62,440 nucleotides of DNA. Source: Pseudomonadota bacterium (GTDB lineage Bacteria; Pseudomonadota; Gammaproteobacteria; Steroidobacterales; SZUA-146). Where the stretch lies: NCBI GenBank assembly GCA_039028935.1, contig JBCCHD010000004.1, positions 113,043 to 175,482 on the forward strand, written 5' to 3'. The translations under genes and the position numbers were made by a program. Shown one piece after another: positions 3,328-23,063 of the stretch; position 1 is the first letter of the stretch, and each line of letters starts with the position of its first letter. A model generated the notes under the pieces. It searched no databases and was not told where the DNA came from. It saw nothing but the letters and a program-made list of their open reading frames with translations.

Positions 3328-4917
3328 ATGTATCGCTTAATTTGCGCGCTTTTGCTGGCCACCGGATTACTCCAAGCCTGCTCACCGAACACGGAACACA
3401 GCGATTCTGCGGTCGCCGACATCCGCCCCTGGCTCGAAATGAAAACCACTAATTCGCGATACCGAGTGCGGATTGACGAGCACTATGCGCATATTCCGGC
3501 CGGTGAACTGCACGCCTGGATCGTGCAGGTAACCACCATAGATGAGGTACCACTGACCCCACAGCGTATGAAGCTCAGTGGCACCATGCCGGGCCACGGG
3601 CATGGCATGGCCACCTTTCCACAGGCGGTTGCCACCGAGCAAACCGGCCGCATGCGCGTCGATGGCATGAAATTTCACATGGGCGGGCTTTGGCGTATGC
3701 GCATCGACATCAATGACGCGGCGGGTCCGGACTATGCCTATTTCGAATTGGATGTGCAGCCAGCACACACACGCGCGCCCGCGAGCATCACGTTTAGCGA
3801 ACAGGAACTGGCGCAACTCAATGGCCTACGTCTCGCTTCGCTCGCCGAGCTCCAAGCCGATCCGTCCAATCGATTCAGCCTTAACTCAGCCGCCGCCGCG
3901 CTCGGCGAGAAATGGTTTTTTGATCCAGGGTTCAGTCAATCCGGAACCGTTTCTTGCGCCACCTGCCATGATCCCGAGCTGGGATTCGGCGACGGCAAAG
4001 CCCTGAGTGTCGGCACCGCCATCACTCCACGTCACGCCCCGACACTCCCGGCAATCGCTCATGCGACTTGGTTCTACTGGGACGGGCGACGAGATAGCCT
4101 TTGGGCGCAAGCCCTTTCGCCTCTTGAGACCCGCGGCGAAATGGATAACCACCGTGGCGACGTGCTGCGCTATATTCTCACACACCCCGAATACGGCCCG
4201 GCATTTGAGCAGCTGACGGGGGTCGGAGCCGATCTACTCAATGATCTTGATCGCCCCGGGCTCAGTCCGTCCACGGAGTCTTGGCGAACGCTGAGACCAC
4301 CCCAACAGGAGCGAATTAATACGGCTTTCGCTCTGGTCGGCAAGGTAATTGCGGCCTACGAAGAGACGCTGCAATACGCGCCCACGAAATTTGATCGATT
4401 CGTCGATGCGCTGCTTGAGGACGGTGAACGCGCAGCGAGCGATCTGTATACCGAGTCTGAGATGCGCGGAGCCAAATTATTCGTCAATGAGGAACAAACA
4501 CCGTGCCTGCGCTGCCACAATGGACCGCTATTCACTAATCAAGAATTTCACAACATCGACACCGGCACCAATGCCGCCGGTGGTTTTGATAGCGGTCGCT
4601 TGGCTGGCGTTATTGCCGTAAAGGCCGACCCGTTTAATTGTCTGGGCGTGTACAGTGATGCGCAACCCGAGCAATGTTCCACACTTAATTTTGCGCGCGG
4701 CAACCACTTGGAATCCGGCGCGTTCAAAACGCCTTCGTTACGCAACATTAAAAACACCGCGCCGTATTTTCATGATGGACGTATGCCGTCGCTTCAGAGC
4801 GTCTTAGCGCACTATCTGGCGTCGCAGGGCGATGAAGACGATGTGCACGAAATGCCGATGTTTGAATTAACCCGTCAAGAAAGCGACGACTTGCTCGCGT
4901 TTCTAAACACGCTGTAG
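3328..4917 (+). CDS. Lipoprotein: YtkA/FixH-like domain fused to di-haem cytochrome c peroxidase
   Basis: 529 residues. The N-terminus is a lipoprotein signal with lipobox LLQAC (Cys18). Residues about 45-145 form an immunoglobulin-like YtkA/FixH-type domain (MPGHGHGMATFPQ, then GMKFHMGGLWRMRIDI), of a kind often linked to copper or haem-copper oxidase maturation. Residues about 165-529 are a MauG/CcpA type di-haem peroxidase (PF03150) with haem motifs CATCH (210-214) and CLRCH (393-397), a typical WDGRRDSLWAQALSP stretch between them and FHDGRMPSLQSVLAHY near the end. It is expected to be periplasmic and lipid-anchored, using electrons to reduce peroxide or to modify a protein as MauG does. 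Joining the two domains in one chain is the unusual feature. Confidence 0.85.
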   Translation: MYRLICALLLATGLLQACSPNTEHSDSAVADIRPWLEMKTTNSRYRVRIDEHYAHIPAGELHAWIVQVTTIDEVPLTPQRMKLSGTMPGHGHGMATFPQAVATEQTGRMRVDGMKFHMGGLWRMRIDINDAAGPDYAYFELDVQPAHTRAPASITFSEQELAQLNGLRLASLAELQADPSNRFSLNSAAAALGEKWFFDPGFSQSGTVSCATCHDPELGFGDGKALSVGTAITPRHAPTLPAIAHATWFYWDGRRDSLWAQALSPLETRGEMDNHRGDVLRYILTHPEYGPAFEQLTGVGADLLNDLDRPGLSPSTESWRTLRPPQQERINTAFALVGKVIAAYEETLQYAPTKFDRFVDALLEDGERAASDLYTESEMRGAKLFVNEEQTPCLRCHNGPLFTNQEFHNIDTGTNAAGGFDSGRLAGVIAVKADPFNCLGVYSDAQPEQCSTLNFARGNHLESGAFKTPSLRNIKNTAPYFHDGRMPSLQSVLAHYLASQGDEDDVHEMPMFELTRQESDDLLAFLNTL

Positions 4918-8526: not shown

Positions 8527-8593
8527 ATTTACGTGCTGGACTTGCTCACGTTCCGAGATCGTGGCACCGTTTTGGTCTGACCTCGGGGGAACG

Positions 8594-9265
8594 ATGATGT
8601 ATCAAGTAAGCCTATCCAGCGCGGCGAAGCGCTTAGCGGCAGGTTGTATCCTGCTATTTTGTTTTAGCGCGACCGCACAAGATACCGATGGCGACGGTGT
8701 GCCGGATCTTACCGACAATTGCTCGCAAGTGCCCAATCCCGCCCAGCTTGATGTGGATGCGGATTTGCTCGGCAATGCGTGTGACGCCGATTTTAATAAT
8801 GATGGCAGTGTCAACTTTCTGGATTTCGTGCAACTGACCGGCGCCTTTCAAACCGCGAACCCACTGTTTGATCTCAATGGGGATGGCATCGTTAACTTCC
8901 TCGATATCTCGCTGTTCGTGCCGAGTTTTAACGGCACACCTGGACCCGGCGCCATCGGTGCTTCGTTCGCCAGCGACGTGCAGCCCATTTTCATGAGCAA
9001 ATGTGCACCGTGCCACACCATTCTTGGTCTTGGCGGTCACAATCTGGCCACGTCCTACGCCGACAACTTGGCGACGGGCAGTCAGTTCACCTGTGGTGGC
9101 ACAACAATCGGCGAATGTGCGCTGGTGCGCGTACGATCCGGTCAGATGCCGCCGGGCGCGGGCTGCACAGGCAATCCCGTCACGGACGCGGGCAATGTAA
9201 GCTGCCTGAACTACACCGAGCAATCGCTGGTGTTTTCTTGGATAAACGGCGGGCTCGCACCGTAG
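8594..9265 (+). CDS. Secreted TSP3/dockerin-like protein with one c-type haem motif
   Basis: 223 residues with a signal peptide ending near FSATAQ (about residue 29). Residues 30-65 are thrombospondin type-3 calcium repeats ([14 protein letters not shown], then [11 protein letters not shown]). Residues 65-115 hold two dockerin-like calcium loops, [12 protein letters not shown] and [12 protein letters not shown]. The C-terminal part begins [17 protein letters not shown], a single CxxCH haem motif (137-141) of the kind seen in small planctomycete-type cytochrome domains; GQMPPGAG near 185 could supply the distal Met. ATG 8594 follows a GGGGG. The same TSP3-dockerin module occurs in the proteins at 38606 and 50148. 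Likely a periplasmic or extracellular electron carrier; partner unknown. Confidence 0.75.
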
Positions 9266-9273
9266 CTGTTGTC

Positions 9274-10578
9274 TCAGCCGGTTCGTTGGCTCGATTCGAG
9301 AACCCGTGATGCATCGGGAGTCTCATCCAGCTGCACGGCGAGCCATAAGGCGGCGCCGGTCAGTGCGAACACGGTGCCACTGCCCAGGGCGACGGGCCAT
9401 CCAAACGTACCGGCCAACCACGGAACGAGCAGTGCATTGAGCACACCCACCAGATTGCCACCTGTATTCATCACGCCGCAGGCCGCACCGGCCTGCGGTC
9501 CTCCCGCACGTATAGCCGCCGCCCAATACGCGCCCTCAGTGCCCTGATGGCAAAAGAACGCGAAAGATAAGACGAGCGCCATCACCCACGGCGTCTGGGC
9601 CATCGCACCAAACAGAATCAGGACGCCGCTGAGCACAAGGCCGGCAACCGCGGGTGCTCGACAGCCAAACTGCATCCCTCGACGACGCGACAATCGGTCG
9701 CACCAAATCGCCCCCAACGTGGCACCGATCGCCGCCGCGATCCACTGTAGCGCATTGAGATAACTCGCCGTTTGCGCCTCGATCTGACGGATTTCAACCA
9801 GGTAATAGAACATCCAGTTGAACAACTGATAAAACACGAAGTTCATGCAAAAGTAACTGAGCGTGAGCAGCAGCACATTGCGATTTCTGAGCACGTCTCG
9901 CCAACGCGACGGCGACCTCTTGTCGTCACGTCGGGCTCGCTCACCCGTGATGAGCGATGCTTCCTGTTCGTTGACGCGCGGATGCGCGCCGGGCGTATCC
10001 CGTATAAACAACCACCATAATGCGGCGGCGACAAAGGCCATGGTGGAGAGCACTACAAACGCGCTGCGCCAACCCATCACGTTAATCAACACAATGAGCA
10101 ACGGCGCGGTGGCGGCTGAACCGAGCGTGAGGCCCGCACTCGACAAGCCATTTGGCAATGCCCACTGTCCGGGCGGAAACCAACGCTGAGTCGTCGCCCC
10201 TGTGACGGGGTAGAGCGGCGCATGCGCCACACCGACCAAGCACCGTACGACGATGAGCAGACCGACCACCCAACCGACCGATGCATCGGCAGGTATCCAT
10301 GCGGTCGCCAAGGTGAGCACGCCCCAGAACAGCATCGCAATCGTCATCGCGCGCCGGGCACCAAACCGATCCGCGATCAGCCCCGCGGGAAACTGGCACA
10401 CCACGTAGCCCACCGAGAAAGCCGCAAACACCCAGCTCAGATGCTCAGCTGTGAGCCCAAACTCCTGAGTAAGCGACGGCGCGGCGGCAGACAGTAGGTA
10501 GCGCAGCACGTACGATACGCAGCTAGCGAGAACCAACAGCGCCAGCACGCCGTAGCGAATTCGGGTTGGGTGCGCCAT
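9274..10578 (-). CDS. MFS transporter, anion:cation symporter-like
   Basis: 434 residues and twelve hydrophobic segments. GLIADRFGARRAMTI between helices 2 and 3 is the MFS signature, and a central charged loop (GERARRDDKRSPSRW) separates the two six-helix halves. The layout is like the ACS (organic anion symporter) family. An upstream start at 10641 would overlap the GcvT-like gene by over 50 bases, so the ATG at 10578, ten bases after that gene, is chosen although its Shine-Dalgarno is weak. As last gene of the flavoprotein/GcvT operon it probably imports the pathway substrate. It converges with the haem protein gene, eight bases apart. Confidence 0.8.
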   Translation of the reverse strand: MAHPTRIRYGVLALLVLASCVSYVLRYLLSAAAPSLTQEFGLTAEHLSWVFAAFSVGYVVCQFPAGLIADRFGARRAMTIAMLFWGVLTLATAWIPADASVGWVVGLLIVVRCLVGVAHAPLYPVTGATTQRWFPPGQWALPNGLSSAGLTLGSAATAPLLIVLINVMGWRSAFVVLSTMAFVAAALWWLFIRDTPGAHPRVNEQEASLITGERARRDDKRSPSRWRDVLRNRNVLLLTLSYFCMNFVFYQLFNWMFYYLVEIRQIEAQTASYLNALQWIAAAIGATLGAIWCDRLSRRRGMQFGCRAPAVAGLVLSGVLILFGAMAQTPWVMALVLSFAFFCHQGTEGAYWAAAIRAGGPQAGAACGVMNTGGNLVGVLNALLVPWLAGTFGWPVALGSGTVFALTGAALWLAVQLDETPDASRVLESSQRTG

Positions 10579-10588
10579 GGATGTACGG

Positions 10589-11758
10589 CTAAAAATTGCC
10601 CGCAGGAGTGGCGCGGCGACGCGCAGGATGCCAGAACGCACCTTCGACTATTTTGCAGGGCGCCAGGACACGCGACCAGTGCAACTCTCGCTGATAGTAG
10701 ATATCGGCATGCAGATCATCGTTGGGTTCGCCAAACGGTTGTTCGACCGAGGCGATAGCCAAATTTGCCTTGCATACCGGCGACCAGACGGCGGAGGTCA
10801 CAAAGCCGATCTGCCGCGACTGTCCCGCATAGAGATAAGCGTGATGGGCCGGTTTGTTGCCCGCGACGTCCAGCTTCAGAAGGCGCCATTTGGACCCTCG
10901 CTTTTTTTCGTCAAGCAGAGCACGACGCCCGGTAAAATGGGGCTTGTCGAAGTCCACAAGGGCGGCCAATCCCAGTTCGAACGGCGAACGGGCGCGGCCA
11001 GGGCGAACAACCTGATCCGCACCGATAAAGTCGACGCCTGCTTGCAAGAAGCCAGCCTCGATTCGCGCCATCTCATAGGCATTCGTGCCGACCGGGCGAA
11101 CGCCCAGGTGTTTACCGGCTTCCATAAGCCCATCCCAAAGCTCGACCGCACAGGATGGGTGTAGCCACAACTCGTAGCCTAAGTCACCGGTAAACCCCGT
11201 GCGCGAACACATCACCGGAACCCCGTTCAGTTCGTACCAATTCAAACGAAACGGCGGAAGTAATTCGACCCCATTAAAACCCAATGCTTTGAGCACCGCA
11301 CACGACGTCGGACCCTGAACGGCCAGTGCGGCCAGGGACGTTTCGTCTTCAATCGTCACATCGAAACCGATCGCGGAGGCCATAAGCCAGGCATAGTGCC
11401 GCTCATAGGCACACAATCGATACACTCCGTCATCCACATGAAACAGCGTGCCGTCATCGAGTACCTTGCCAGCGTCATCACACCAAACAACGTACGTAAC
11501 GCGACCGGCTTCAAGCGTACTCACCTCTCGTGTCACGAGCCGATTGAGAAAATCTCGGGCATCGGGTCCCGAAATGCGATATTTGTTGAGTGGTGACAGA
11601 TCAAACAGGCCCGTGGAGTTGCGCAAGGCGAAATACTCCAGCTCCTCATCGTCATACGCGTCGCTGACCGTCACACCCTTCCACTGGTGCCAGAGATTCA
11701 GACGATTGGCGGCAGCCGTGCGCAAATGAAAGGGGCTTACAGCGGTCGACAGATTCAT
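10589..11758 (-). CDS. GcvT-like aminomethyltransferase family protein
   Basis: 389 residues, like glycine-cleavage T-protein. Features in order: the N-terminal FHLRTAAANRLNLWHQWKGV, STGLFDLSPLNKYRISGPDA, VLDDGTLFHVDDG with Asp pair 101-102 at the position of the catalytic Asp of T-proteins, LAALAVQGPTS, SRTGFTGDLGYELW, and ARIEAGF, all folate-binding GcvT hallmarks. Enzymes of this family move a one-carbon unit onto or off tetrahydrofolate (glycine cleavage, dimethylglycine and sarcosine oxidation, DMSP demethylation). No gcvH or gcvP is nearby, so it is a paralogue with another substrate. The start overlaps the previous stop as ATGA (11755-11758), showing translational coupling to the flavoprotein gene. 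Confidence 0.85.
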   Translation of the reverse strand: MNLSTAVSPFHLRTAAANRLNLWHQWKGVTVSDAYDDEELEYFALRNSTGLFDLSPLNKYRISGPDARDFLNRLVTREVSTLEAGRVTYVVWCDDAGKVLDDGTLFHVDDGVYRLCAYERHYAWLMASAIGFDVTIEDETSLAALAVQGPTSCAVLKALGFNGVELLPPFRLNWYELNGVPVMCSRTGFTGDLGYELWLHPSCAVELWDGLMEAGKHLGVRPVGTNAYEMARIEAGFLQAGVDFIGADQVVRPGRARSPFELGLAALVDFDKPHFTGRRALLDEKKRGSKWRLLKLDVAGNKPAHHAYLYAGQSRQIGFVTSAVWSPVCKANLAIASVEQPFGEPNDDLHADIYYQRELHWSRVLAPCKIVEGAFWHPARRRATPAGNF

Positions 11759-13290
11759 CGTGCATTGACCTCTCGAAGTATTTCTCGGGCGCAGTTGCGA
11801 CCTGCCGCGCCGCTGACGCCGCCACCGGGATGGGTACTCGCGCCGCAAAGATACAAACCGTCTACTGGGAGCGCATACCGCTCGGCACCATAGGTTGGCC
11901 GCACAAATAAAAATTGATCGAGGGACAGCTCGCCGTGGTGCCAGTGACCACCGGACACGCCATAGGCATACTCCAGGTCGAGCGGCGTTTGCAGCCGCGA
12001 CGACACAACTTGTTGTCGCAGCCCCGGCAGATAACGCTCGAGTTGGTCGAGAAGTTGCTCTGTGAGTCGCGTCTTGGCCGCATCAGTCCAGCCTTCTTTG
12101 AGCTCATAAGGCACATATTGCACCGACGCGCTCAGGACATGCTGCCCAGACGGAGCGAGCGACGGATCGATGAGGGTGGGCAGGCCAAACTCCATCACGC
12201 ATTCGTCCGACCACTGTCCATACTTGGCCGGATTAAACGCGTTTTCGACGTGATCCATTGTTGGCGCAATCACCAACCGTTGAGCGAGGTCATTTTCATT
12301 TAGATTGTTAACCGATGGCATCCCCGCCAGAGCCAAATCCAGTCGCGCGACATTACCGCTGCAACGAATATGATGCACCCGACGTATAAATCCGGCATCG
12401 AAGTGGCGCGCACCGACCAGTGACAACACGGTAGCGCGAACATCCAAATTGGATACCACCCGATCCGCCGAGATTATTTCGCCGGATTCCAATACGATGC
12501 CGCTGGCGCGACCACGCTTGACCACGACCTGAGCCACAGGGGCTTCGGTGCGAATCTTGACGCCACGCTGTTCGGCGACCTCTCGCAACGCGTCGATCAA
12601 ATTCTCGCCGCCGGCGGCGTGGACCAACGGCGGTGCCCCACTCAGACGATGCATGAAATTCAGGACCGTGTTGCCCGAACGTGGCCCGAGATGACTACCC
12701 AGTGTCCCGTCTAACGCTAGCGCCCCTTTGAGGGCATCCGTGGTCAGCCACTCGTTAAACACATCGTAGACATTGCCGGCGCCCACCCGCAACAGCGCCC
12801 GCAAATCGTCGCGACCGAGCCGTCTTAGATCCAAACCCAATCGTGCGAGTGCAAATCGCTCGCGGTGCGTATCGGGTTTGAGTTTGGGTGGGCGCCGAGC
12901 ATAGAGGGTTTCGAGCAGCCCACCAAAGCGCCGCATTTGTTCCATTAGGCCGCGATAGGCCTGTACATCGTGTTCGGGCAGTCCGCGAAGCACCGCGGTA
13001 CGGTTGAAGACGATCGGCGCCGCGCCGTCCGAGAGCACAACCGTGTCGAGCGAGGCGCGCTTCGCCAACGTTGATTGCAACGTCAATTCGTGAAGCACAG
13101 CGGGCGCGAGCTGGTAGAAAAAGAGCGCTGGCCCAGGCGCACGAAAACCGGGAGCGAACTCACTCACTGCCGCCATACCACCCAGCGCTGACCGCGCCTC
13201 ATAGACCGTGGTATCAACGCCACCTTCTGCGAGCAATGCCGCGGTCACGAGGCCATTATGTCCGCCACCGATGATGGCTGCACTAGTCAT
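11755..13290 (-). CDS. Phytoene-dehydrogenase-like FAD oxidoreductase (second of pair)
   Basis: 511 residues. AAIIGGGHNGLVTAALLAEGG is the FAD-binding betaalphabeta unit, followed by VYEARSALGGMA. The C-terminal LYLCGASTHPGGGVSGAAGRNCA is the second FAD contact typical of phytoene desaturase/CrtI-like and PYROXD2-like flavoproteins. There are no carotenoid genes in the window, so a carotenoid substrate is unlikely. ATG 13290 follows GGAGA and overlaps the upstream flavoprotein gene by eight bases. It is roughly one-third identical by eye to its neighbour at 13283, suggesting a duplicated pair that may form a heteromer. Its stop overlaps the GcvT-like start. Confidence 0.85.
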   Translation of the reverse strand: MTSAAIIGGGHNGLVTAALLAEGGVDTTVYEARSALGGMAAVSEFAPGFRAPGPALFFYQLAPAVLHELTLQSTLAKRASLDTVVLSDGAAPIVFNRTAVLRGLPEHDVQAYRGLMEQMRRFGGLLETLYARRPPKLKPDTHRERFALARLGLDLRRLGRDDLRALLRVGAGNVYDVFNEWLTTDALKGALALDGTLGSHLGPRSGNTVLNFMHRLSGAPPLVHAAGGENLIDALREVAEQRGVKIRTEAPVAQVVVKRGRASGIVLESGEIISADRVVSNLDVRATVLSLVGARHFDAGFIRRVHHIRCSGNVARLDLALAGMPSVNNLNENDLAQRLVIAPTMDHVENAFNPAKYGQWSDECVMEFGLPTLIDPSLAPSGQHVLSASVQYVPYELKEGWTDAAKTRLTEQLLDQLERYLPGLRQQVVSSRLQTPLDLEYAYGVSGGHWHHGELSLDQFLFVRPTYGAERYALPVDGLYLCGASTHPGGGVSGAAGRNCAREILREVNAR

Positions 13291-14899
13291 CGCCAAAGTT
13301 CTCCGGCACCGTGTTGGGCTGCTTCAGATCGCGCAGAATTTCGCGCGCTGCATTGGCGCCCGGTGCCGCCATTACGCCACCTCCGGGGTGAGTACTCGAA
13401 CCGCACATATACACCCCTTTAACGGGCGCTCGATACTGCGCATACCCCGGCAACGGTCGGTTGAACAACAGCTGGTCAAGCGTCAGTTCGCCCTGAAAAA
13501 TATTCCCCGAGGTCAGACCCACCTCGGCTTCAAGCTCTCGCGGTGTGCGCACTTCCATATGTAGAATCAGATCCTTGAAATCGGGGCTGAAGCGACCGAT
13601 CTGATCGATCACGGTTTGTCCAAACGCATCGCGATCGGCATCTGTCCATTCACCGGTCGCGAGCCTAGGTGGGCAGTACTGTACGAACACACTCATAAAA
13701 TGCTTACCCGGCGGTGCCATGGTCGGATCGCACGTTGTGGGCATGAGCATGTCGAGGTACGGATCTTGGGACCACCTTCCTGCTTTCCAATCGTCGTACC
13801 CGCGTTCGAGGCGCTTGACGCTATCGACAAAATGCATATCACCGCCGTAGAGCGGACTGCCCTTGGGCAAGGCGCTAAAGGTGGGTAACCCGTCTAACGC
13901 GATGTTGACCTTGCCCGACGAACCGCGAATGCGAAAGTGCTCAACGCCCTTCACAAAATCGGCGGGCAGTTTAGTCTCGCTCATACACGTTAAGAACGTG
14001 CGCTTGACGTCGAGATTGGACACGACGATCGAGCTCGTCAACTCCTCTCCAGAGGCCAGCGCAACGCCGGTTGCGCGCCCATCTTTCACCAATATTTGCT
14101 CGACCGGTGCGTTGGTGCGCACCTCGCCCCCGCGCTCACGAACCGCGCCGTACAGTGCCTGCGAGACCGCACCCATGCCGCCACGCGCCAGCCCCCAGGT
14201 GCCCACATTGCCATCCACATCCCCCATATAATGATGAAGCATGACGTAGGCGGTACCCGGAGAATAAGGCCCGAGTGCCGTGCCGATAATGCCGCTGCCG
14301 GCCAGATTGGCTTTGACGATGTCGGTCTCAAAAAACTCGTCAAGATAGTCTGCGACGCTCATGCTCCAGAAACGGAAGGTGTCATACATGACCGCTTCAT
14401 CGAGTTCGCCAAACGCCTGGCCGATCGTCATGAGTTCACGCAAATCACGGGGCCGAAACGAGGTCGGATCCGGTGGTGTGGACAGCATAAAGTCGCGAAT
14501 GAAACGACACTGGCGCGCGGTCTCGGTTTTGAAGCGGCGCCACGTCTCAGCATCGTGCAGCGAATGACGCGCATACTCCCGATAGGCCAGTTCTCTATCC
14601 CGATAAGCCGCGAAATAGTCGCCGTTTTCCATATACGTGACACCACCACCGTAGGGCGTCACCTGCAAACCATGGCGAGCGAGATTCAGCGCGCGGTATA
14701 TTTCGGGCCGCAGCAGACTGCACACATACGAGCAGTTGGAGTACTTCCAATCGGAGTACAGCTCTCGACTCACGGTTGCGCCACCAATGTAGTCGTTCTT
14801 TTCAACCACCAGCACACTCAGGCCAGCCTCAGCCAGAAAGGCAGCATTGGTTAAGCCGTTGTGGCCGGCGCCGATGACAATCGCGTCGTACTGTTTCAA
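13283..14899 (-). CDS. Phytoene-dehydrogenase-like FAD oxidoreductase (first of pair)
   Basis: 538 residues. YDAIVIGAGHNGLTNAAFLA is the FAD-binding motif and VYMCGSSTHPGGGVMAAPGANA the C-terminal FAD motif. The body includes GTWGLARGGMGAVSQALYGAV, which family members use to build the substrate cavity. The frame has no ATG before the FAD motif, so a TTG at 14899 is the probable start; no good Shine-Dalgarno is visible. It is the first gene of a four-gene operon, and its stop lies inside the next gene's start region. Likely substrates are amines or hydrophobic organic acids; not determinable here. Confidence 0.8.
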   Translation of the reverse strand: MKQYDAIVIGAGHNGLTNAAFLAEAGLSVLVVEKNDYIGGATVSRELYSDWKYSNCSYVCSLLRPEIYRALNLARHGLQVTPYGGGVTYMENGDYFAAYRDRELAYREYARHSLHDAETWRRFKTETARQCRFIRDFMLSTPPDPTSFRPRDLRELMTIGQAFGELDEAVMYDTFRFWSMSVADYLDEFFETDIVKANLAGSGIIGTALGPYSPGTAYVMLHHYMGDVDGNVGTWGLARGGMGAVSQALYGAVRERGGEVRTNAPVEQILVKDGRATGVALASGEELTSSIVVSNLDVKRTFLTCMSETKLPADFVKGVEHFRIRGSSGKVNIALDGLPTFSALPKGSPLYGGDMHFVDSVKRLERGYDDWKAGRWSQDPYLDMLMPTTCDPTMAPPGKHFMSVFVQYCPPRLATGEWTDADRDAFGQTVIDQIGRFSPDFKDLILHMEVRTPRELEAEVGLTSGNIFQGELTLDQLLFNRPLPGYAQYRAPVKGVYMCGSSTHPGGGVMAAPGANAAREILRDLKQPNTVPENFGDD

Positions 14900-15341: not shown

Positions 15342-16502
15342 TCAGCGGCGCGTTGTCGGCGCCACGCCCATCGTTTTCGCGATAATGCTCAGCATTACCT
15401 CATCGGCGCCACCACCGATCGATGCCAGACGCATGTCGCGAAATCGACGCGAAATGAGCATGTCATTCATAAACCCCATTCCGCCATAGTATTGCAGGCA
15501 ACCGTCCACCACCTCACGATAGAGTCGTCCGGTTTTGAGCTTCAACATGGACACCTGCTGCAGCACATCTTGACCCGACCGATAGCGGAGGATCGTCTGT
15601 TCTAACAGCGCTCGAAATAGGGTCACTTCTGTCTTGAGCTCAGCCAGTCGAAAATGCACCGCTTGATGGTCCAACACACTCTGTCCAAAAATACGTCGTT
15701 CACGCGTGTAAGCGATTGTGTCGTCGATGGTCATCTCAAGCACTCGAACCGCAGCGGCGGCCACCCACAATCGCTCTTCCTGAAACTGCGTCATTTGATA
15801 AGTAAAACCCTGACCCGGTTCGCCCACACAATACCGTTTGGGCACGCGCACATTGTCAAAGTGAATAAGCCCTGTGTCCGACGAGTGCATGCCCATTTTG
15901 TCGAGCTTGCGGGCTCGCTCCACACCCGGCGTATCCATCGGAATCACAATGAGGCTTTTGTTGTGATGCGCATCGCCGTCACCGGTATTGACCAGCGCCG
16001 TCATAAAATCCGCCTGTATCGCGTTGGTGATCCACATCTTCTGGCCGTTGATCACGTAGTCTCCGCCATCCTCGCGAGCCCAGGTTTTGATGGCTGACAC
16101 ATCACTGCCCGCTTCCGGTTCCGACACACCTAAACACGCGACCTTGTCGCCACGAATCGCCGGCTGCAAAAACTCGTCGCGCAATTCCTGAGACCCGTGA
16201 TTAGCCAGACACGGCGTGGCCATGTCCGTTTGCACGCCGATCGCCATTGGTATGGCGAGGCAATCCGTCTCACCGAGCGCCTCCACACAGGCGACGTTGT
16301 AGCTGTAATCTAGCCCCAGGCCGCCATCCGCTTCGGGTTTTTGGATGCCGAGCAGGCCCAGATCGCCCATTTTTTTAAACAGCTCATGAGCGGGAAACAT
16401 CTTTGCCTTTTCCCATTCATCGACAAACGGATTGATCTCTTGCTCGACAAAGCGTCGCGTCGTGCGCTGAATTTCATGATGTTCGTGTGTGTAAAAATCC
16501 AT
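15342..16502 (-). CDS. atuD: Acyl-CoA dehydrogenase, citronellyl-CoA dehydrogenase-like
   Basis: 386 residues, normal for the family. Family signatures are CLGVSEPEAGSDVSAIKTWA, with the first PROSITE-type motif, MWITNAIQADFMTALV, and QYYGGMGFMNDMLISRRFRD near the end, with a catalytic Glu/Asp region typical of medium and branched-chain enzymes. It would use FAD and electron transfer flavoprotein to introduce a 2,3-double bond. As last gene of an AtuA-C-E-F-D series it is best read as citronellyl-CoA dehydrogenase of acyclic terpene degradation; isovaleryl-type activity is the alternative. Start ATG has a GGGAG upstream. Confidence 0.75.
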   Translation of the reverse strand: MDFYTHEHHEIQRTTRRFVEQEINPFVDEWEKAKMFPAHELFKKMGDLGLLGIQKPEADGGLGLDYSYNVACVEALGETDCLAIPMAIGVQTDMATPCLANHGSQELRDEFLQPAIRGDKVACLGVSEPEAGSDVSAIKTWAREDGGDYVINGQKMWITNAIQADFMTALVNTGDGDAHHNKSLIVIPMDTPGVERARKLDKMGMHSSDTGLIHFDNVRVPKRYCVGEPGQGFTYQMTQFQEERLWVAAAAVRVLEMTIDDTIAYTRERRIFGQSVLDHQAVHFRLAELKTEVTLFRALLEQTILRYRSGQDVLQQVSMLKLKTGRLYREVVDGCLQYYGGMGFMNDMLISRRFRDMRLASIGGGADEVMLSIIAKTMGVAPTTRR

Positions 16503-16557
16503 GCGGACTCCCGTGATCGCGCTCAGCGTGGAGGCAAGCCCAAACCGCGCGCGTCAT

Positions 16558-18558
16558 TTACTCGGTATCGGTAGGCTCAATGCGAATAAGTAGCTCGTCC
16601 GCCGCGATCTGCTCACCTTTGCGGGCAGCCACTTCGGCGATTTTGCCCGCCGTAGGAGCGACAATTTCATGCTGCATTTTCATGGCTTCCAAAACCGCGA
16701 GCTTATCGCCCTGTGCCACTTGGTCTTCCGGCGACACAAACACGTCGATCACCACGCCATGCATCGGGCAGAGCACGGTACCCTCGCCCGCCGCAGACTC
16801 CCCGCCAAAGGACGCCAGAAGATCCGTGAAGCGCAGCGTCACCCCGTCAAACATGACAAACAGGCGACCATCGGCAAGCACCTGGTATTGCACATCGAAC
16901 CGCTCGCCACCGACACGAATGCGCGCCGATTCGTCATCGAAATGGTCGCCGATCACCGCAAACGTCGCGCCACCGATCTCGATGCGCAGTGTCGATTCAT
17001 CGAGCGATGACACGACCGCTTCATGCTCGGTGGATGAACGTCCATCCTGCAGTTGATAGGTCGATCGCAAACCCTGATTATTCGACCAGCCAAGCATGGC
17101 ATGACTGCCGCCGAGTGAACGACGCCGGGCGAGTCGTCGATCATGGAAATAGCGCAAGGTCGTGGCCAATGCAACGTGTTCACCGAGGACCGGCCGGCCA
17201 GCGAAGCCAGCGTCGCCAAACGCGTCACCGATAAACGCGGTTGTCGCGCGGCCACTGGCAAAATCAGCCGCATTCACACAGGCGAGCAGAAACTCAATAT
17301 TGCTTTCCGGTCCGAACAGCACACTGTCACGCAATGCGGTAGCAAGATGATGCAATGCCTCATCACGGGTTTGACCAAAACCGATTACTTTGGCCAGCAT
17401 CGAATCGTAAAACGGTGAGATCAATTGTCCGCTCGTGACCCCGTCATCGACCCGCACACCGATACCCTGTGGTGCACGCCAGCGCGCGATGAGACCGGTG
17501 GAGGGTGCAAAATCGTTCGCCGGATTTTCCGCATACACGCGCGCCTCAATCGCGTGCCCCCGAAGTTCAACATCCGATTGACGGATGCTCAAAGGCTCAT
17601 TTCTTGCCACCTGAATCTGCATAGCCACCAGATCGCAGCCCGTCACAAGCTCGGTCACGGGATGCTCGACTTGCAAACGCGTGTTCATTTCCAAAAAGTA
17701 GAAGTCGTTGTTTTTATCGAGTAAGAATTCCACCGTACCCGCGCCGCGATAGTCAATGCGTCGCGCTGCCGCGACCGCTGCCTCACCCATACGCGCACGA
17801 AGATCTGGTGTCATAATCGGACACGGCGACTCCTCCAACACCTTTTGATGTCGTCGCTGTACCGAACAGTCGCGCTCCCCTAAGTGAATAACATGACCGT
17901 GATTGTCGGCCATAACTTGAACCTCAACGTGCCGTGGTTCAATCACCGCTTTTTCGAGGATAAGCTCGCCGGAGCCAAAGGCATTTTGTGACTCAGAGCG
18001 GGCTAAACTGATCGCGCTGTCGAGCTCGCTGTCGTGCTGAACCAGACGCATGCCGCGACCGCCACCACCCGCGGCAGCTTTGACCATTAGCGGAAAACCA
18101 ATCGTGCGGCCTTCTTTTGCGAGCACGGCGGGGTCTTGATCTTCACCCTCGTAGCCGGGAATACAGGGCACATTCGCGTCAATCATCATGCGTTTGGCTG
18201 CGGCCTTGTTGCCCATTGCCGCGATCGCCTCAGGCGAGGGTCCTATGAAAATAATGCCGGCATCGGCGCAGGCACGCGCAAAATCGGCATTCTCTGATAG
18301 AAAGCCATAACCGGGGTGAACCGCCTGCGCACCAGTCGCCATCATCACTTCGAGCAACTTATCCGCATTGAGATAGGATTCGGTCGCTGGGCCTGCGCCA
18401 ATGCACACCGCCTCATCGGCTAACGCGCGGTGTGGCGCATCGTGATCCGCGTCGGAATATACCGCAATCGTGTGAATCCCCATTGCGCGCGCCGAGCGAA
18501 TTACCCGACAGGCTATCTCGCCCCGGTTTGCGATGAGAATTCGTTCTATAGTCGCCAT
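16558..18558 (-). CDS. atuF: Acyl-CoA carboxylase alpha subunit (biotin carboxylase + BCCP), geranyl-CoA type
   Basis: 666 residues. ILIANRGEIACRVIRSA starts the biotin carboxylase domain; GGGGRGMRLV is the ATP-grasp loop, RDCSVQRRHQKV and FLEMNTRLQVEHPVTE are catalytic-site motifs. The C-terminal biotinyl domain carries VLEAMKMQH, with the biotinylated lysine near residue 626. The arrangement is that of the methylcrotonyl-/geranyl-CoA carboxylase alpha subunits. The neighbouring AtuA-like gene and lack of HMG-CoA lyase favour geranyl-CoA carboxylase. The ATG has AGGAC upstream and lies 66 bases after the hydratase gene stop. Confidence 0.8.
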   Translation of the reverse strand: MATIERILIANRGEIACRVIRSARAMGIHTIAVYSDADHDAPHRALADEAVCIGAGPATESYLNADKLLEVMMATGAQAVHPGYGFLSENADFARACADAGIIFIGPSPEAIAAMGNKAAAKRMMIDANVPCIPGYEGEDQDPAVLAKEGRTIGFPLMVKAAAGGGGRGMRLVQHDSELDSAISLARSESQNAFGSGELILEKAVIEPRHVEVQVMADNHGHVIHLGERDCSVQRRHQKVLEESPCPIMTPDLRARMGEAAVAAARRIDYRGAGTVEFLLDKNNDFYFLEMNTRLQVEHPVTELVTGCDLVAMQIQVARNEPLSIRQSDVELRGHAIEARVYAENPANDFAPSTGLIARWRAPQGIGVRVDDGVTSGQLISPFYDSMLAKVIGFGQTRDEALHHLATALRDSVLFGPESNIEFLLACVNAADFASGRATTAFIGDAFGDAGFAGRPVLGEHVALATTLRYFHDRRLARRRSLGGSHAMLGWSNNQGLRSTYQLQDGRSSTEHEAVVSSLDESTLRIEIGGATFAVIGDHFDDESARIRVGGERFDVQYQVLADGRLFVMFDGVTLRFTDLLASFGGESAAGEGTVLCPMHGVVIDVFVSPEDQVAQGDKLAVLEAMKMQHEIVAPTAGKIAEVAARKGEQIAADELLIRIEPTDTE

Positions 18559-18624
18559 GTCTATGTCCTGGTGTCTAACTGCTTTATTTTGCCCGCTTGA
18601 CTATCGGCGGCGTGCTGTCGGCCA

Positions 18625-19443
18625 TCACGTGCTGGAAGATTGCCAAGCGGGTGCCCGACGATCAAAAAAAGCCCGGGTGCCCTCGCGCCCTTCTTCGCTC
18701 GTCACGCACTCGGCGAAACGTTCTGCCGCCCACGTCTTGAAGGCGTCGTGATCGGAGTGCACAAGGTGGCTCAACACGCGTTTGGTCACACCCACCGCAC
18801 CGGGTGCGCATTGCCCAACTTTTTCTTTGAGCGCACGCTCCAGTAGGTCGAGCTCAGTGCGATCATCGGCCAACGCGTCGATCAGGCCAAATTCATGCGC
18901 CTGAGTCCCATCGAAACGCTCCCCCAATAGTAATAGCCGTCGCGCGACACTCGGTCCGGTGCGCTGCATTACATAGGGCGCTATCTGCGCTGGCGCCAAT
19001 CCTATTCGCGTCTCGGTAAACGCAAATTGTGCATCGCGAGTCGCCAACACGAAATCCGCCGCACAGGCCATACCGAGCCCTCCGGCCATTGCCGCACCCT
19101 CGATCAGCGCGACCACCACCTGCGGCGCGCGATGAACATGTTCAAACAGCTCCGCGCCGCCAAGGCTGGTTTGGCGCGATTGATCGTAGGCCTTTGTATC
19201 CGACAGCTCGCTCAATGCCCGAAAGGCTTTGAGATCACCGCCGGCACAAAACACGCCACCCTCGCCTCGCACGCTGATGCCACGCACTGTGCGGTCATTA
19301 CGCACGGCTAGAAACACCGCATTCAATTCGGCGCTCAAACGGTCGGTGAGCGCATTGCGAGTAGACGGCTCGTTCAGCGTCACGCTCAACCAACCTGCAT
19401 TGAGCGAGAGTTTCAGCGAGTGTGTATCGGGCAGTGACGTCAT
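18625..19443 (-). CDS. atuE: Enoyl-CoA hydratase, isohexenylglutaconyl-CoA hydratase-like
   Basis: 272 residues of the crotonase fold. The oxyanion-hole strand GVFCAGGDLKAF and the second signature ALIEGAAMAGGLGMACAADFVLA are both present, and FAFTETRIGLAPAQIAPYV contains the usual catalytic-side helix. By position between the carboxylase beta and alpha genes it should hydrate the carboxylated glutaconyl-CoA product (isohexenylglutaconyl-CoA in the Atu pathway, methylglutaconyl-CoA in leucine degradation). Only nine bases separate it from the beta subunit gene. Confidence 0.75.
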   Translation of the reverse strand: MTSLPDTHSLKLSLNAGWLSVTLNEPSTRNALTDRLSAELNAVFLAVRNDRTVRGISVRGEGGVFCAGGDLKAFRALSELSDTKAYDQSRQTSLGGAELFEHVHRAPQVVVALIEGAAMAGGLGMACAADFVLATRDAQFAFTETRIGLAPAQIAPYVMQRTGPSVARRLLLLGERFDGTQAHEFGLIDALADDRTELDLLERALKEKVGQCAPGAVGVTKRVLSHLVHSDHDAFKTWAAERFAECVTSEEGREGTRAFFDRRAPAWQSSST

Positions 19444-19452
19444 CGATAGCGC

Positions 19453-21075
19453 TCAGAAACGGGACACGCCAAAACTGTTCGCCTGTGTCGTTCGCGCGCG
19501 CGCTTCCCAAATGGTCTCGAGCGCAAAACCCAGCACTCGGCGCGTGTCGCGAGGATCGATAATGCCCTGGTCAAGGACGCGGCCGGACGTGTAAAACGCA
19601 CTCGACTGTTTATCGAAATGGGCAGTAATGCGCGTTTCCTGTTCGCTCATGGCGGCCTCATCAATCGGCTGGCCACGACGCTTGGCCGAAATTCGCATTA
19701 CCTGCGACATGGTTTGGGCCGCTTGTTCACCGCCCATAACGCCGGTCGTGGCGTTCGGCCAAGCAAACAGGAAATCGGGTTCATACGACTGGCCACTCAT
19801 ACCGTAGTTGCCGGCACCAAAACTGGCGCCGATGTAAAGTGTGATGCGAGGAACACGCGTATTCGCCACGGCCTGGATCATTTTGGATCCATGTTTAATC
19901 ATGCCGGCCTGCTCGTATTCAGTACCCACCATGTAGCCGGTTGTGTTGTTAAGAAACAAAATGGGCCGCTGCGCTTGATCGCACAGCTGAATGAAGTGCC
20001 CAGCCTTCGTCGCGCCCTGTGGGTCGATCGGTCCGTTGTTCGCAATAATGGCGATGCTGTGGCCGTAAATTCGCGCGGTCACGCAAAGCGTCGCTGCACC
20101 ATACCGAGATTTAAACTCCTCAAAATCGGACCCATCGACCACACGCGCGATCACCTCACGCGCGTCATACGCTTTCTTATGGTCGATCGGCACCACGCCC
20201 GCGATGTCGTCCACACTATATTTAGGCTCATCAAAGTCCTGCGTCGGAATCGGCGGACACTGTTGATTCCAGCCGAGGTCGTCGACAATACGTCGCGCCA
20301 CATTGATGCCGTGGTTGTCATTCTCGGCGAGATATTCGACCACGCCTGTAACCTCAGAGTGCATTTTCGCGCCACCGAGTTGTTGCTCATCGGCGACCTC
20401 ACCGGTGGCCGCGCGCACCAAGGCCGCGCCCGCCAGCGCCGCCATACCGTTGTCTTTCACGCCGACTACGTAATCACTCATGCCGGGCATGTACGCTCCA
20501 CCGGCGGTCGATGGTCCATGCAGAACGGCGATACACGGAACGCCCGCTGCACTGAGTTTGGCCAACCGATAAAACACCGCGCCAAACTGCACCCAGCCCT
20601 CTACCGCGTAATCCATCAGATTGGCCCCGGCGCTTTCCACACAGTGAATCACAGGCAGTCGAAAGCGCTGCGCCACCGCCAACGCACCGAGTGCTTTGGG
20701 CAGTGAGCCCTTCGTAACGGCACCGGCCCGTATACCGCTGTCGTCGACCCAAACAAGACACCGAACGCCGCTCACGAAGCCAATGCCAACAATCATGCTG
20801 GCACCTGGAATACTGGTATCTGGATCACTGTCCTCCATCAGGTAGTTGGCCATGTTGTACAGCTCAAGAAACGGCATGCCTGGATCGAGCAGGCGGTTTA
20901 GCCTCTCTCGCGGCAGCAACTGACCTCGCTCCTCAAAGCGCGCCGCGCGCTTGCTTGAGCGCTCTACCGCGCGCGCCTCGAGTGCGCGCATATGATCGAC
21001 CAACGCCAGCATATCCTGGCGATTGCGCAAAAATTCATCGTCGTTGGTATCAACTTTGGAGACAAACACTGTCAT
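19453..21075 (-). CDS. atuC: Acyl-CoA carboxylase beta subunit, geranyl-CoA type
   Basis: 540 residues of the biotin-dependent carboxyltransferase family: RERLNRLLDPG at the N-terminus, STAGGAYMPGMSDYVVGVK, GGAKMHSEVTG, and FLNNTTGYMVG then SFGAGNYGMSGQ in the C-terminal half. The acyl-CoA pocket region reads ESAGANLMDYAVEG and lacks the DVFPD-HFGR stretch I recall from methylcrotonyl-CoA carboxylases, which argues for a larger substrate such as geranyl-CoA. The ATG directly abuts the AtuA-like stop codon (TAA then ATG), so translation is coupled. Confidence 0.8.
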   Translation of the reverse strand: MTVFVSKVDTNDDEFLRNRQDMLALVDHMRALEARAVERSSKRAARFEERGQLLPRERLNRLLDPGMPFLELYNMANYLMEDSDPDTSIPGASMIVGIGFVSGVRCLVWVDDSGIRAGAVTKGSLPKALGALAVAQRFRLPVIHCVESAGANLMDYAVEGWVQFGAVFYRLAKLSAAGVPCIAVLHGPSTAGGAYMPGMSDYVVGVKDNGMAALAGAALVRAATGEVADEQQLGGAKMHSEVTGVVEYLAENDNHGINVARRIVDDLGWNQQCPPIPTQDFDEPKYSVDDIAGVVPIDHKKAYDAREVIARVVDGSDFEEFKSRYGAATLCVTARIYGHSIAIIANNGPIDPQGATKAGHFIQLCDQAQRPILFLNNTTGYMVGTEYEQAGMIKHGSKMIQAVANTRVPRITLYIGASFGAGNYGMSGQSYEPDFLFAWPNATTGVMGGEQAAQTMSQVMRISAKRRGQPIDEAAMSEQETRITAHFDKQSSAFYTSGRVLDQGIIDPRDTRRVLGFALETIWEARARTTQANSFGVSRF

Positions 21076-22998: not shown

Positions 22999-23063
22999 GA
23001 TAGGGCTCTCCAAGCAGGCAGCGGGTGTTCGCTGACAGCGTTCGATTGTACATGCAAACGCAA

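Follow-up and report, generated by a model that had tools for sequence, protein, structure and literature searches.

Two flavoproteins (hereafter FADA and FADB) and a GcvT-like protein encoded in the 62,440-nucleotide stretch of DNA that was analyzed (the window) constitute a conserved three-gene module that is found in many marine and soil bacteria, both Alpha- and Gammaproteobacteria. The module is probably a split, folate-coupled oxidative N-demethylation system in which flavoproteins of the CrtI/amine-oxidase fold replace the DAO domain of DMGDH. A split C1-transfer module of this kind, proposed in an earlier note on this DNA, fits the three-gene unit, the retention of an aspartate and a glutamate in the predicted folate site, and an amine-related gene neighborhood in relatives that was found in 0 of 20 control stretches.

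In the window, the genes occupy positions 9274-14899 on the reverse strand: FADA (538 aa, 13283-14899 including the stop codon, 13286-14899 without it), FADB (511 aa, 11755-13290 and 11758-13290, respectively), the GcvT-like, predicted folate-binding protein of the aminomethyltransferase type (389 aa, 10589-11758 and 10592-11758), and an MFS carrier resembling anion:cation symporters (434 aa, 9274-10578). FADA starts with TTG at 14899, in agreement with the 'MKxYDAIV' start of the orthologues; FADB, GcvT and the carrier start with ATG at 13290, 11758 and 10578, and the stop positions of FADA, FADB and GcvT are 13283, 11755 and 10589. These coordinates bear out the coupling described earlier, namely an 8-base overlap between FADA and FADB (13283-13290), a 4-base ATGA overlap between FADB and GcvT (11755-11758), and a carrier gene whose ATG lies 10 bases past the GcvT stop. 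Immediately upstream of FADA, on the same strand, are genes for AtuA, carboxyl transferase, ECH, biotin carboxylase and ACAD, with 442 bases between ACAD and FADA.

The scan of relatives' contigs covered the best 80 of 581 relatives and gives no prevalence; gene calls were greedy and were checked with tblastn. GcvT is immediately preceded by FADB in 77 of the 80 named loci, the other three starting at a contig edge, and FADA is also present in 73 of the 80 according to the resolved table (the raw count is 77, because FADA also matches FADB). Every missing gene is at a contig edge (L064 and L067 lack GcvT, and L063 lacks FADA). Three gene orders were observed: FADA-FADB-GcvT, FADB-FADA-GcvT in L076 and L077, and GcvT-FADA-FADB in L078. 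Given that FADB and GcvT overlap by 4 bases in 53 of the 76 measurable named loci and are separated by no more than 20 bases in 74 of the 76, their arrangement exceeds chance, although the chance figures ignore kinship. Among 59 genomes of the taxonomic order, including that of the window, all 16 with GcvT are among the 18 with FADA at 59% or more; in the remaining two, the contigs end within FADB. Likewise, of 249 genomes from across the phylum, GcvT was found in 5 and FADA in 6, which include those 5 and of which 4 belong to one genus; the sixth genome possesses the whole set, with GcvT at 37% identity. Genome G066, considered as a counter-example with FADA but no GcvT at the threshold, was rejected as such, the whole cassette being present. 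On plasmids, the same 7 records contain GcvT and, roughly 1.6 kb away, FADA (at least 60%), and FADB lies between them in all 4 records that were read, which are annotated alphaproteobacterial regions.

Co-conservation of a four-gene order thus holds for the three enzyme genes and fails for the MFS gene, which does not occur in any of 100 other loci that carry cassette genes (the 80 named loci and 20 unnamed ones, with at least two contigs in both sets, L062/L082 and L068/L111, judging by their equal lengths). The carrier matches MFS_1 with 187.3 bits and TIGR00893 with 236.6 bits against a cut-off of 395. Its homologues in two closely related genomes are located between a Rieske gene and a gene of the histamine/trimethylamine-dehydrogenase family.

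The GcvT-like protein belongs to the GCV_T superfamily (PF01571, 180.5 bits, cut-off 25.6; PF08669, 32.3 bits, cut-off 25.9). D102, E196 and R232 are invariant across 19 aligned cassette GcvTs, and the counterparts of the window's D102 and E196 in the T. maritima T-protein are, by alignment, D96 and E195, the catalytic aspartate and the pterin-binding glutamate, respectively, whose roles presumably apply here. The equivalent of T. maritima R227 is absent, with Y228 in its place. With the Asp and the Glu kept, the folate site, loss of which would have told against the original proposal, is not visibly lost, and the protein appears to possess the folate-binding GcvT part seen in DMGDH and SARDH. 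The residues predicted to bind THF in SesA, as given in PMC5547118, include D95 and E189.

Assignment to a narrower family did not succeed: the scores were 136.6 bits against 235.85 for the glycine cleavage T-protein (TIGR00528), 135.3 against 410 for DmdA (NF009133), and 245 against 1100 for TMAO demethylase (NF053776), the last match covering only positions 385-728 of the 763 in the profile. Identity with DmdA or TMAO demethylase was accordingly rejected. The best PDB match is nevertheless TMAO demethylase (9q5a/9q59, 232.7 bits), the C-terminal GcvT-like domain of which is also the best NCBIfam match, and the PDB relatives include 4p9s and 1pj5. In a tree with long-branch warnings, the 19 cassette GcvTs cluster separately from the T-protein and the large-frame GcvT domains of the genome. 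Of the 12 GcvT-domain matches in this genome, seven lie in open frames of 811-1034 aa and one is a distinct T-protein-like gene (C11). A role in glycine cleavage was rejected given the T-protein score below the cut-off and the location of gcvP (586.7 bits) on contig C55, with the cassette on contig C4, so that there is no genetic link between cassette GcvT and gcvP. The absence of gcvH/P, which had been cited in support of the pathway, can hold only for the window and, for gcvP, is an artefact of the window.

For both flavoproteins, PF01593 (cut-off 19.8) is the best family, clearly for FADB (76.3 bits against 43.9 for PF01266) and marginally for FADA (51.8 against 50.2). The scores of FADB and FADA are 123 and 114 bits against a cut-off of 238.1 for CrtI (TIGR02734), and 216.8 and 274.7 bits against 1000 for CrtO (NF045689), the best-scoring NCBIfam model; on these scores, identification as carotenoid enzymes was rejected. 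Foldseek searches with both predicted models (mean pLDDT 84.4 for FADA and 84.8 for FADB) listed the carotenoid desaturase 4rep, which is the top match in both cases, NicA2, putrescine oxidase and MAO, placing the models in the CrtI/amine-oxidase fold group; such structure matches do not distinguish between substrates. FADA is the best-kept gene of the module, with 45-72% identity to 22 aligned orthologues, and is approximately 64-72% identical to orthologues from clusters with Pot or Rieske genes. FADB is divergent in the window lineage (36-48% identity to 23 aligned orthologues; end branch of 1.04 in the tree). In a quick tree search with midpoint rooting, FADA and FADB form separate old clades, with stand-alone paralogues on the FADA side; the L096 stand-alone paralogue (N-terminally cut) was dropped from this tree. 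The L141 FADA (stop in range) was also dropped, and alignment A1 does not include L028. The two proteins, described earlier as a duplicated pair, are indeed paralogues, but recent tandem duplication was rejected in view of their placement in separate groups.

The neighborhoods of the module in relatives are rich in amine-related genes. In the 34 long named loci (at least 19 kb), TetR regulators (24), class-III aminotransferases (24), Rieske oxygenases (23), PotF (16), CoA ligase (16) and ACAD (16) are present, compared to 0 of 20 control stretches for each. PotG is present in 18 of 34 against 5 of 20, so that the count for any Pot gene (19 of 34 against 5 of 20) is weak and PotF is the better count; three long loci (L084, L114 and L153) are without Pot, Rieske, TetR and aminotransferase genes. 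These counts are based on up to 8 representatives per family, drawn at random from the same loci, with thresholds of 30% identity and half the length, and are inflated by self-matches and lowered by short contigs; the controls were stretches of 19.5 kb from 12 genomes (8 with the cassette), picked away from known cassettes. The four annotated alphaproteobacterial plasmid regions carry the same neighbor set. The cassette-locus Rieske oxygenase, assigned to the betaine/carnitine demethylase group, is nearest in the PDB to 3vca/4qup (4qup being named a monoxygenase/demethylase) and to carnitine monooxygenase. The PotF-like protein keeps the W (23/23) and D (22/23) of 'NWADY', the W and D of 'WSGD' (both 23/23) and the D of 'LWVD' (23/23), positions that are presumably the diamine ligands in putrescine binders. 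Because these positions are kept, a di-cation is favored as the substrate, which would be a methylated diamine-like cation; trimethyllysine as the one substrate is possible but was set aside for the same reason.

In the reaction that we infer, the Rieske oxygenase would first remove one methyl from a trimethylammonium group, after which FADA and FADB would act on a methylated amine, small and probably cationic, and oxidize its N-methyl groups to the methylene-iminium, and the GcvT-like protein would hand the carbon to tetrahydrofolate, yielding 5,10-methylene-THF and a less methylated amine. The labor is likely divided so that each flavoprotein handles a single methylation state (first dimethyl, then monomethyl); alternatively, a heteromeric complex may be formed. 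The class-III aminotransferase present in many relatives would go on to transaminate the amine so released, and in the window the MFS protein would act as the carrier in place of a PotFGHI-type importer.

DMGDH, SARDH and dimethylglycine oxidase consist of a DAO-type FAD domain fused to GcvT. Like them, the cassette would couple oxidation by a flavin to a folate domain of the GcvT type, with THF as the presumed acceptor, but it comprises separate open reading frames rather than a one-chain DAO-GcvT fusion, and two flavoproteins of the CrtI/amine-oxidase fold group for which PF01593 is the best family. In the glycine betaine route, the Rieske monooxygenase GbcA is followed by DMGDH and SARDH. 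Many relatives similarly pair the module with a GbcA-like Rieske protein and a BetI-like regulator, which suggests stepwise removal of three methyl groups. However, six cassette-locus Rieske proteins score 125-272 bits against the GbcA cut-off of 670, and the two TetRs that were scanned score 96.7 and 107.6 bits against TIGR03384 (201.3) and 92.0 and 104.5 bits against NF001978 (118); the flavoproteins are different, and the PotF-type importer and aminotransferase beside the module point to another substrate. A precedent for the split layout is SAR11_1303/SAR11_1304, described in PMC3160333 as a stand-alone AMT of unknown function beside a monomeric sarcosine oxidase, with a betaine transporter gene; there, a single flavoprotein so annotated takes the place of the CrtI-like pair.

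Several alternatives to coupled N-demethylation have to be weighed. The flavoproteins could oxidize the amine backbone, in the manner of polyamine oxidase or PuuB, with the GcvT-like protein being a THF-dependent demethylase in its own right (like DmdA, LigM and SesA) that catalyzes a successive step. Polyamine-pathway genes do adjoin the cassette in several loci (PotFGHI, GS of the gamma-glutamylputrescine-synthetase group, a PuuC-like ALDH in L072, agmatinase and GATase), both flavoproteins have amine oxidases, putrescine oxidase being one of them, among their structural matches, and GcvT-family enzymes can handle methyl or methylene groups with no flavin partner, as described in PMC5547118. 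Nevertheless, this scenario appears unlikely: the polyamine genes are variable (GS in 12 and ALDH in 8 of the 34 long loci), whereas the three enzyme genes are not, and the overlap coupling of two flavoproteins to GcvT, kept in three gene orders, suggests a tight unit. Still less probable is action of the flavoproteins on isoprenoids or other lipids, with a secondary or unrelated role of GcvT and, in the window, membership of the upstream Atu-like (acyclic-terpene) cluster. The CrtO and 4rep matches and the same-strand position of that cluster in the window lineage fit such a role, but the CrtI and CrtO scores are far under the curated cut-offs, a 442-base gap separates ACAD from FADA, and the wider neighborhood is amine-related; moreover, AtuA, carboxyl transferase, ECH and biotin carboxylase are found in 0 of the 100 loci with cassette genes, and the homologues of the window's ACAD that occur in 32 of the 100 are all distant, reaching about 31% at most.

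A variant of the N-demethylation scenario has a better claim than either, without becoming the expected outcome: the module might have been repurposed in the window lineage and act on another substrate than the Pot/Rieske clusters do, such as a compound that is anionic and already dimethylated when the MFS symporter imports it. The long end branch of FADB and the TIGR00893-like carrier are consistent with such a change, and accessory genes appear to be missing or distant in the window's genome, where a search without a positive control gave no match to PotF, the CoA ligase has only a 30% match, aminotransferase matches do not exceed 35%, and Rieske genes are approximately 28-35% identical to c4 members among the matches listed. 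The identity of FADA to its orthologues in Pot/Rieske clusters, in contrast, suggests the same substrate class. For folate-coupled N-demethylation itself, the points that count against it are the fold of the flavoproteins, which also covers carotenoid desaturases, the adjoining Atu-like cluster, the divergence of FADB, the missing R227 equivalent, the missing or distant accessory genes in the window's genome, the three long loci that have none of the amine-related neighbors, and the inflation of the neighbor counts by representatives taken from the cassette loci. Homarine catabolism, considered as a lead, was dropped after nothing usable was found in the literature.

Tentatively, and with less confidence than in N-demethylation as such, FADA-FADB-GcvT might represent a previously undescribed class of folate-coupled N-demethylases in which, after the Rieske step, a CrtI/PYROXD2-type pair, with one flavoprotein for each methylation state, acts on diamines, polyamines or methyllysine-like compounds that are quaternised or dimethylated. 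Such a class would give Proteobacteria a way to use the carbon and nitrogen of methylated polyamine-type compounds, and it could serve as a model for the action of human PYROXD2 on methyllysines. No title or abstract start describing this cassette was found in the literature search, which covered freely accessible journal papers. Human PYROXD2 is, we assume, a member of the same CrtI-like flavoprotein family, and we know of no GcvT partner for it. Variants of PYROXD2 have been associated with N6-methyllysine and N6,N6-dimethyllysine (PMC8109053, PMC9730628) and with N6,N6,N6-trimethyllysine and N-methylpipecolate (PMC8109053), and a 2022 abstract states that little is known of its 'precise biological function' (PMC8777681). 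If the N-demethylation scenario is correct, folate-coupled N-demethylation was assembled again from another flavoprotein group and kept split across Alpha- and Gammaproteobacteria; methylated polyamine-like compounds would then probably be a food source of marine bacteria that has been overlooked. Direct tests of CrtI-like flavoprotein chemistry would also become possible, perhaps including that of human PYROXD2, variants of which follow methyllysines in blood. Cultured strains suitable for testing the module are Kiloniella laminariae DSM 19542, Shinella zoogloeoides, HTCC2148 and Parasedimentitalea marina.

The genes for two flavoproteins of the CrtI/amine-oxidase fold, FADA (13286-14899) and FADB (11758-13290), a GcvT-like protein (10592-11758) and an MFS carrier (9277-10578) all lie on the minus strand of the window (stop codons are excluded from these coordinates). 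FADA and FADB overlap by 8 bases and FADB and GcvT by 4 bases, and the MFS gene follows GcvT after 10 bases; the cluster is real, with the coordinates, overlaps and spacing described in the earlier note. Pfam PF01593 ranks first for both flavoproteins, the GcvT-like protein matches PF01571 and PF08669, and the carrier matches MFS_1. The NCBIfam models scored below their cut-offs for the GcvT-like protein (GcvT, 136.6 vs 235.85; DmdA, 135.3 vs 410; TMAO demethylase, 245 vs 1100) and for FADB and FADA (CrtO, 216.8 and 274.7 vs 1000; CrtI family, 123 and 114 vs 238.1).

The three enzyme genes, hereinafter the cassette, form a conserved unit. Among the 59 genomes of the order, including that of the window, GcvT matches (at 1e-40) were found in 16 and FADA (at least 59% identity) in 18; all 16 fall within the 18, an overlap with a chance probability of 1.4e-12 when kinship is ignored, and in the remaining two the contigs end inside FADB. 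In tblastn searches of the 80 named loci (the best 80 of 581 relatives), FADB immediately precedes GcvT in 77 and FADA is present in 73; the loci without both flavoproteins (L091, L134 and L138) or without FADA (L123, L144, L145 and L157) are all at contig starts. The order is FADA-FADB-GcvT in most loci, FADB-FADA-GcvT in L076 and L077, and GcvT-FADA-FADB in L078. Among 76 named loci, FADB and GcvT overlap by 4 bases in 53 and lie within 20 bases of each other in 74. In an even draw of 249 genomes from the phylum, FADA was detected in six and GcvT in five, four of which represent one genus; the sixth FADA genome, G066, has all three genes, with GcvT at 37%. Seven plasmid records contain GcvT, and all seven also encode, at a distance of about 1.6 kb, a FADA with at least 60% identity; 12 more plasmid records encode FADA-like proteins at 37-39%, and none of these 12 gave a GcvT match at 1e-60. 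Close to their first cassette, loci L095 (19109-21135) and L105 (18517-21133) have an additional, paralogous GcvT-FADB pair encoded on the other strand.

Conservation of the four-gene order does not extend to the carrier: the MFS gene lies outside the conserved operon, being found at 0 of 100 loci with cassette genes (80 named and 20 unnamed). MFS homologues (36-44%) occur in seven of the 59 genomes of the order, including that of the window, all within the 18 cassette-bearing genomes; in G032, 19 kb lie between the homologue and the cassette. Two genomes of a single 1.4-Mb genus have the homologue flanked by a Rieske gene and a flavoprotein gene (L192:8125-12531 and L193:7549-11958); in the L192 copies, which were scanned, the Rieske protein is of the betaine/carnitine type and the closest matches of the flavoprotein are histamine and trimethylamine dehydrogenases. 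Given this presence of homologues among amine-type genes, the carrier plausibly transports methylated amines despite its position outside the conserved operon. The MFS-centred cluster of L192 and L193 is a candidate separate N-methyl amine operon.

The neighbors of the cassette in other genomes include a PotFGHI-type importer, a BetI-like TetR, a class-III aminotransferase (GntE/GSA-like beside FADA, of another type elsewhere), a Rieske oxygenase, an NDP-forming acyl-CoA ligase, acyl-CoA dehydrogenase (ACAD), enoyl-CoA hydratase (ECH), ALDH (PuuC-like in L072) and a GS of the gamma-glutamylputrescine-synthetase group, with DAO, GATase and agmatinase added in Porticoccaceae and OM182. In 34 named loci of at least 19 kb vs 20 control stretches of 19.5 kb, with counts inflated by self-matches, we found TetR and the aminotransferase in 24 vs 0 each, Rieske in 23 vs 0, PotF and PotH in 16 vs 0 each, PotI in 14 vs 0, PotG in 18 vs 5, CoA ligase and ACAD in 16 vs 0 each, GS in 12 vs 0 and ALDH in 8 vs 0 (one-sided Fisher test, 9e-8 for TetR and aminotransferase to 0.04 for PotG, kinship and self-matches being ignored). 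Pot, Rieske, TetR and aminotransferase genes are all missing from three of the 34 (L084, L114 and L153).

Four annotated plasmid regions, from Rhizobium sp. SL42, Fuscovulum ytuae, Parasedimentitalea marina and Shinella zoogloeoides, have this set of genes as well: TetR, two "NAD(P)/FAD-dependent oxidoreductases", an "aminomethyltransferase family protein", an aminotransferase, an ABC importer and at least one ring-hydroxylating oxygenase. In Fuscovulum, the aminotransferase shares 63-64% identity with the copies of L124 and L156 (labelled Gammaproteobacteria) and 68% with that of L151 (labelled Proteobacteria); the Rhizobium and Shinella enzymes belong to the other type (47% to L109). An OYE-type flavoprotein was found in Parasedimentitalea, with histamine and trimethylamine dehydrogenases as its nearest PDB matches, and is present by annotation in Shinella. 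The GntE/GSA-like aminotransferase is probably a specific partner enzyme of the cassette. Copies at or near the cassette are also seen at L096:5459-6799, L177:7503-8864 and L180:1688-2995, the latter two 63-64% and 58-60% identical, respectively, to aminotransferases of two loci labelled Gammaproteobacteria.

The neighbors also bear on the substrate. For the L116 Rieske protein, which is truncated by the contig edge, the best PDB match is 3vca/4qup (4qup is named monoxygenase/demethylase), presumably stachydrine demethylase, with carnitine monooxygenase lower down; on the GbcA model (cut-off 670), six Rieske proteins from cassette loci reach 125-272 bits and are quaternary-ammonium N-demethylase-like rather than GbcA. 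Two TetRs score 107.6 and 96.7 on the BetI model TIGR03384 (cut-off 201.3) and 104.5 and 92.0 on NF001978 (cut-off 118). The L101 substrate-binding protein is closest to SpuE, SpuD and PotF (3ttl and 3ttm, listed in the PDB as polyamine transport protein, are, we assume, SpuE and SpuD), and 23 PotF-like members keep certain tryptophans and carboxylates that we take to be diamine ligands; the Rhizobium-locus protein is more distant (PotD, 88.6 bits). Combined, the Rieske, TetR and substrate-binding protein evidence suggests a compound that carries a methylated ammonium at one end and is cationic at the other end as well.

The invariant residues of the cassette GcvTs include D102, E196 and R232; the first two correspond in the alignment to D96 and E195 in the T-protein of T. 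maritima. Position 228, a Tyr in the window protein, is Arg in the T-protein and Leu in the consensus. In SesA, D95, E189 and Y221 are described as predicted THF-binding residues (PMC5547118). In a 58-protein tree, FADA falls in one group and FADB in another (SH-aLRT 93 and 99), and stand-alone paralogues side with FADA. In a separate GcvT tree, the 19 cassette GcvTs form one group (99) set apart from eight other GcvT domains of the window's genome, several of them long-branched. The AlphaFold models of FADB and FADA (mean pLDDT 84.8 and 84.4) both have a carotenoid desaturase as their top match, with amine oxidases such as nicotine and putrescine oxidase lower in the lists. A stand-alone FADA-like flavoprotein (37%) shares a neighborhood with a c4-type Rieske gene at L061:14330-18606 (G032).

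Human PYROXD2 is presumably a relative of these flavoproteins. Its variants are reported to be linked to N6-methyllysine (50% of variance), N6,N6-dimethyllysine, trimethyllysine and N-methylpipecolate (PMC8109053), and again to the first two (PMC9730628), making methylated lysine or polyamine chemistry natural to try across the entire family. A precedent for the split arrangement is SAR11_1303 (AMT), described as of unknown function, which adjoins SAR11_1304, a monomeric sarcosine oxidase (PMC3160333); the cassette differs in its flavoprotein group and in having a flavoprotein pair.

Split folate-coupled N-demethylation appears to be the best reading of the FADA-FADB-GcvT unit, one that we consider moderately probable. 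The Rieske enzyme would take the first methyl off R-N(CH3)3+, FADA and FADB would oxidize the next two N-methyl groups, with GcvT passing each methylene to THF, and the primary amine would go to the aminotransferase and then, where present, ALDH or CoA ligase; such stepwise demethylation would follow the logic of glycine betaine to dimethylglycine, sarcosine and glycine. The absence of gcvH/P, formerly cited in support, holds for the window at most, given that gcvP is found elsewhere in this 4.1-Mb, 91-contig assembly, which has 12 GcvT-domain matches. The Rieske and downstream genes do not lie near the cassette in the window, and their best matches in this genome are distant; the window's enzymes may therefore act on a compound that comes in dimethylated, or these distant homologues may serve as their partners.

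Directly upstream of the cassette (15345-23013, minus strand), the genes for AtuA, carboxyl transferase, ECH, biotin carboxylase and ACAD are an Atu-like acyclic-terpene or acyl-CoA cluster; the first four were found at 0 of 100 other loci with cassette genes. In one same-genus MAG, FADA lies between an incomplete ACAD gene on its upstream side and the FADB start on its downstream side, and in another FADA adjoins the FADB start. On the downstream side, the plus strand encodes a MauG-type di-haem cytochrome peroxidase (3328-4914) and a small thrombospondin type 3 repeat protein (8591-9262). Elsewhere in the genome, on contigs C42, C48, C34 and C1 (loci L002-L008), open frames 811-1034 aa long encode a rich set of seven GcvT domains; on C34, a Rieske gene and a class-III aminotransferase also lie within about 8 kb.
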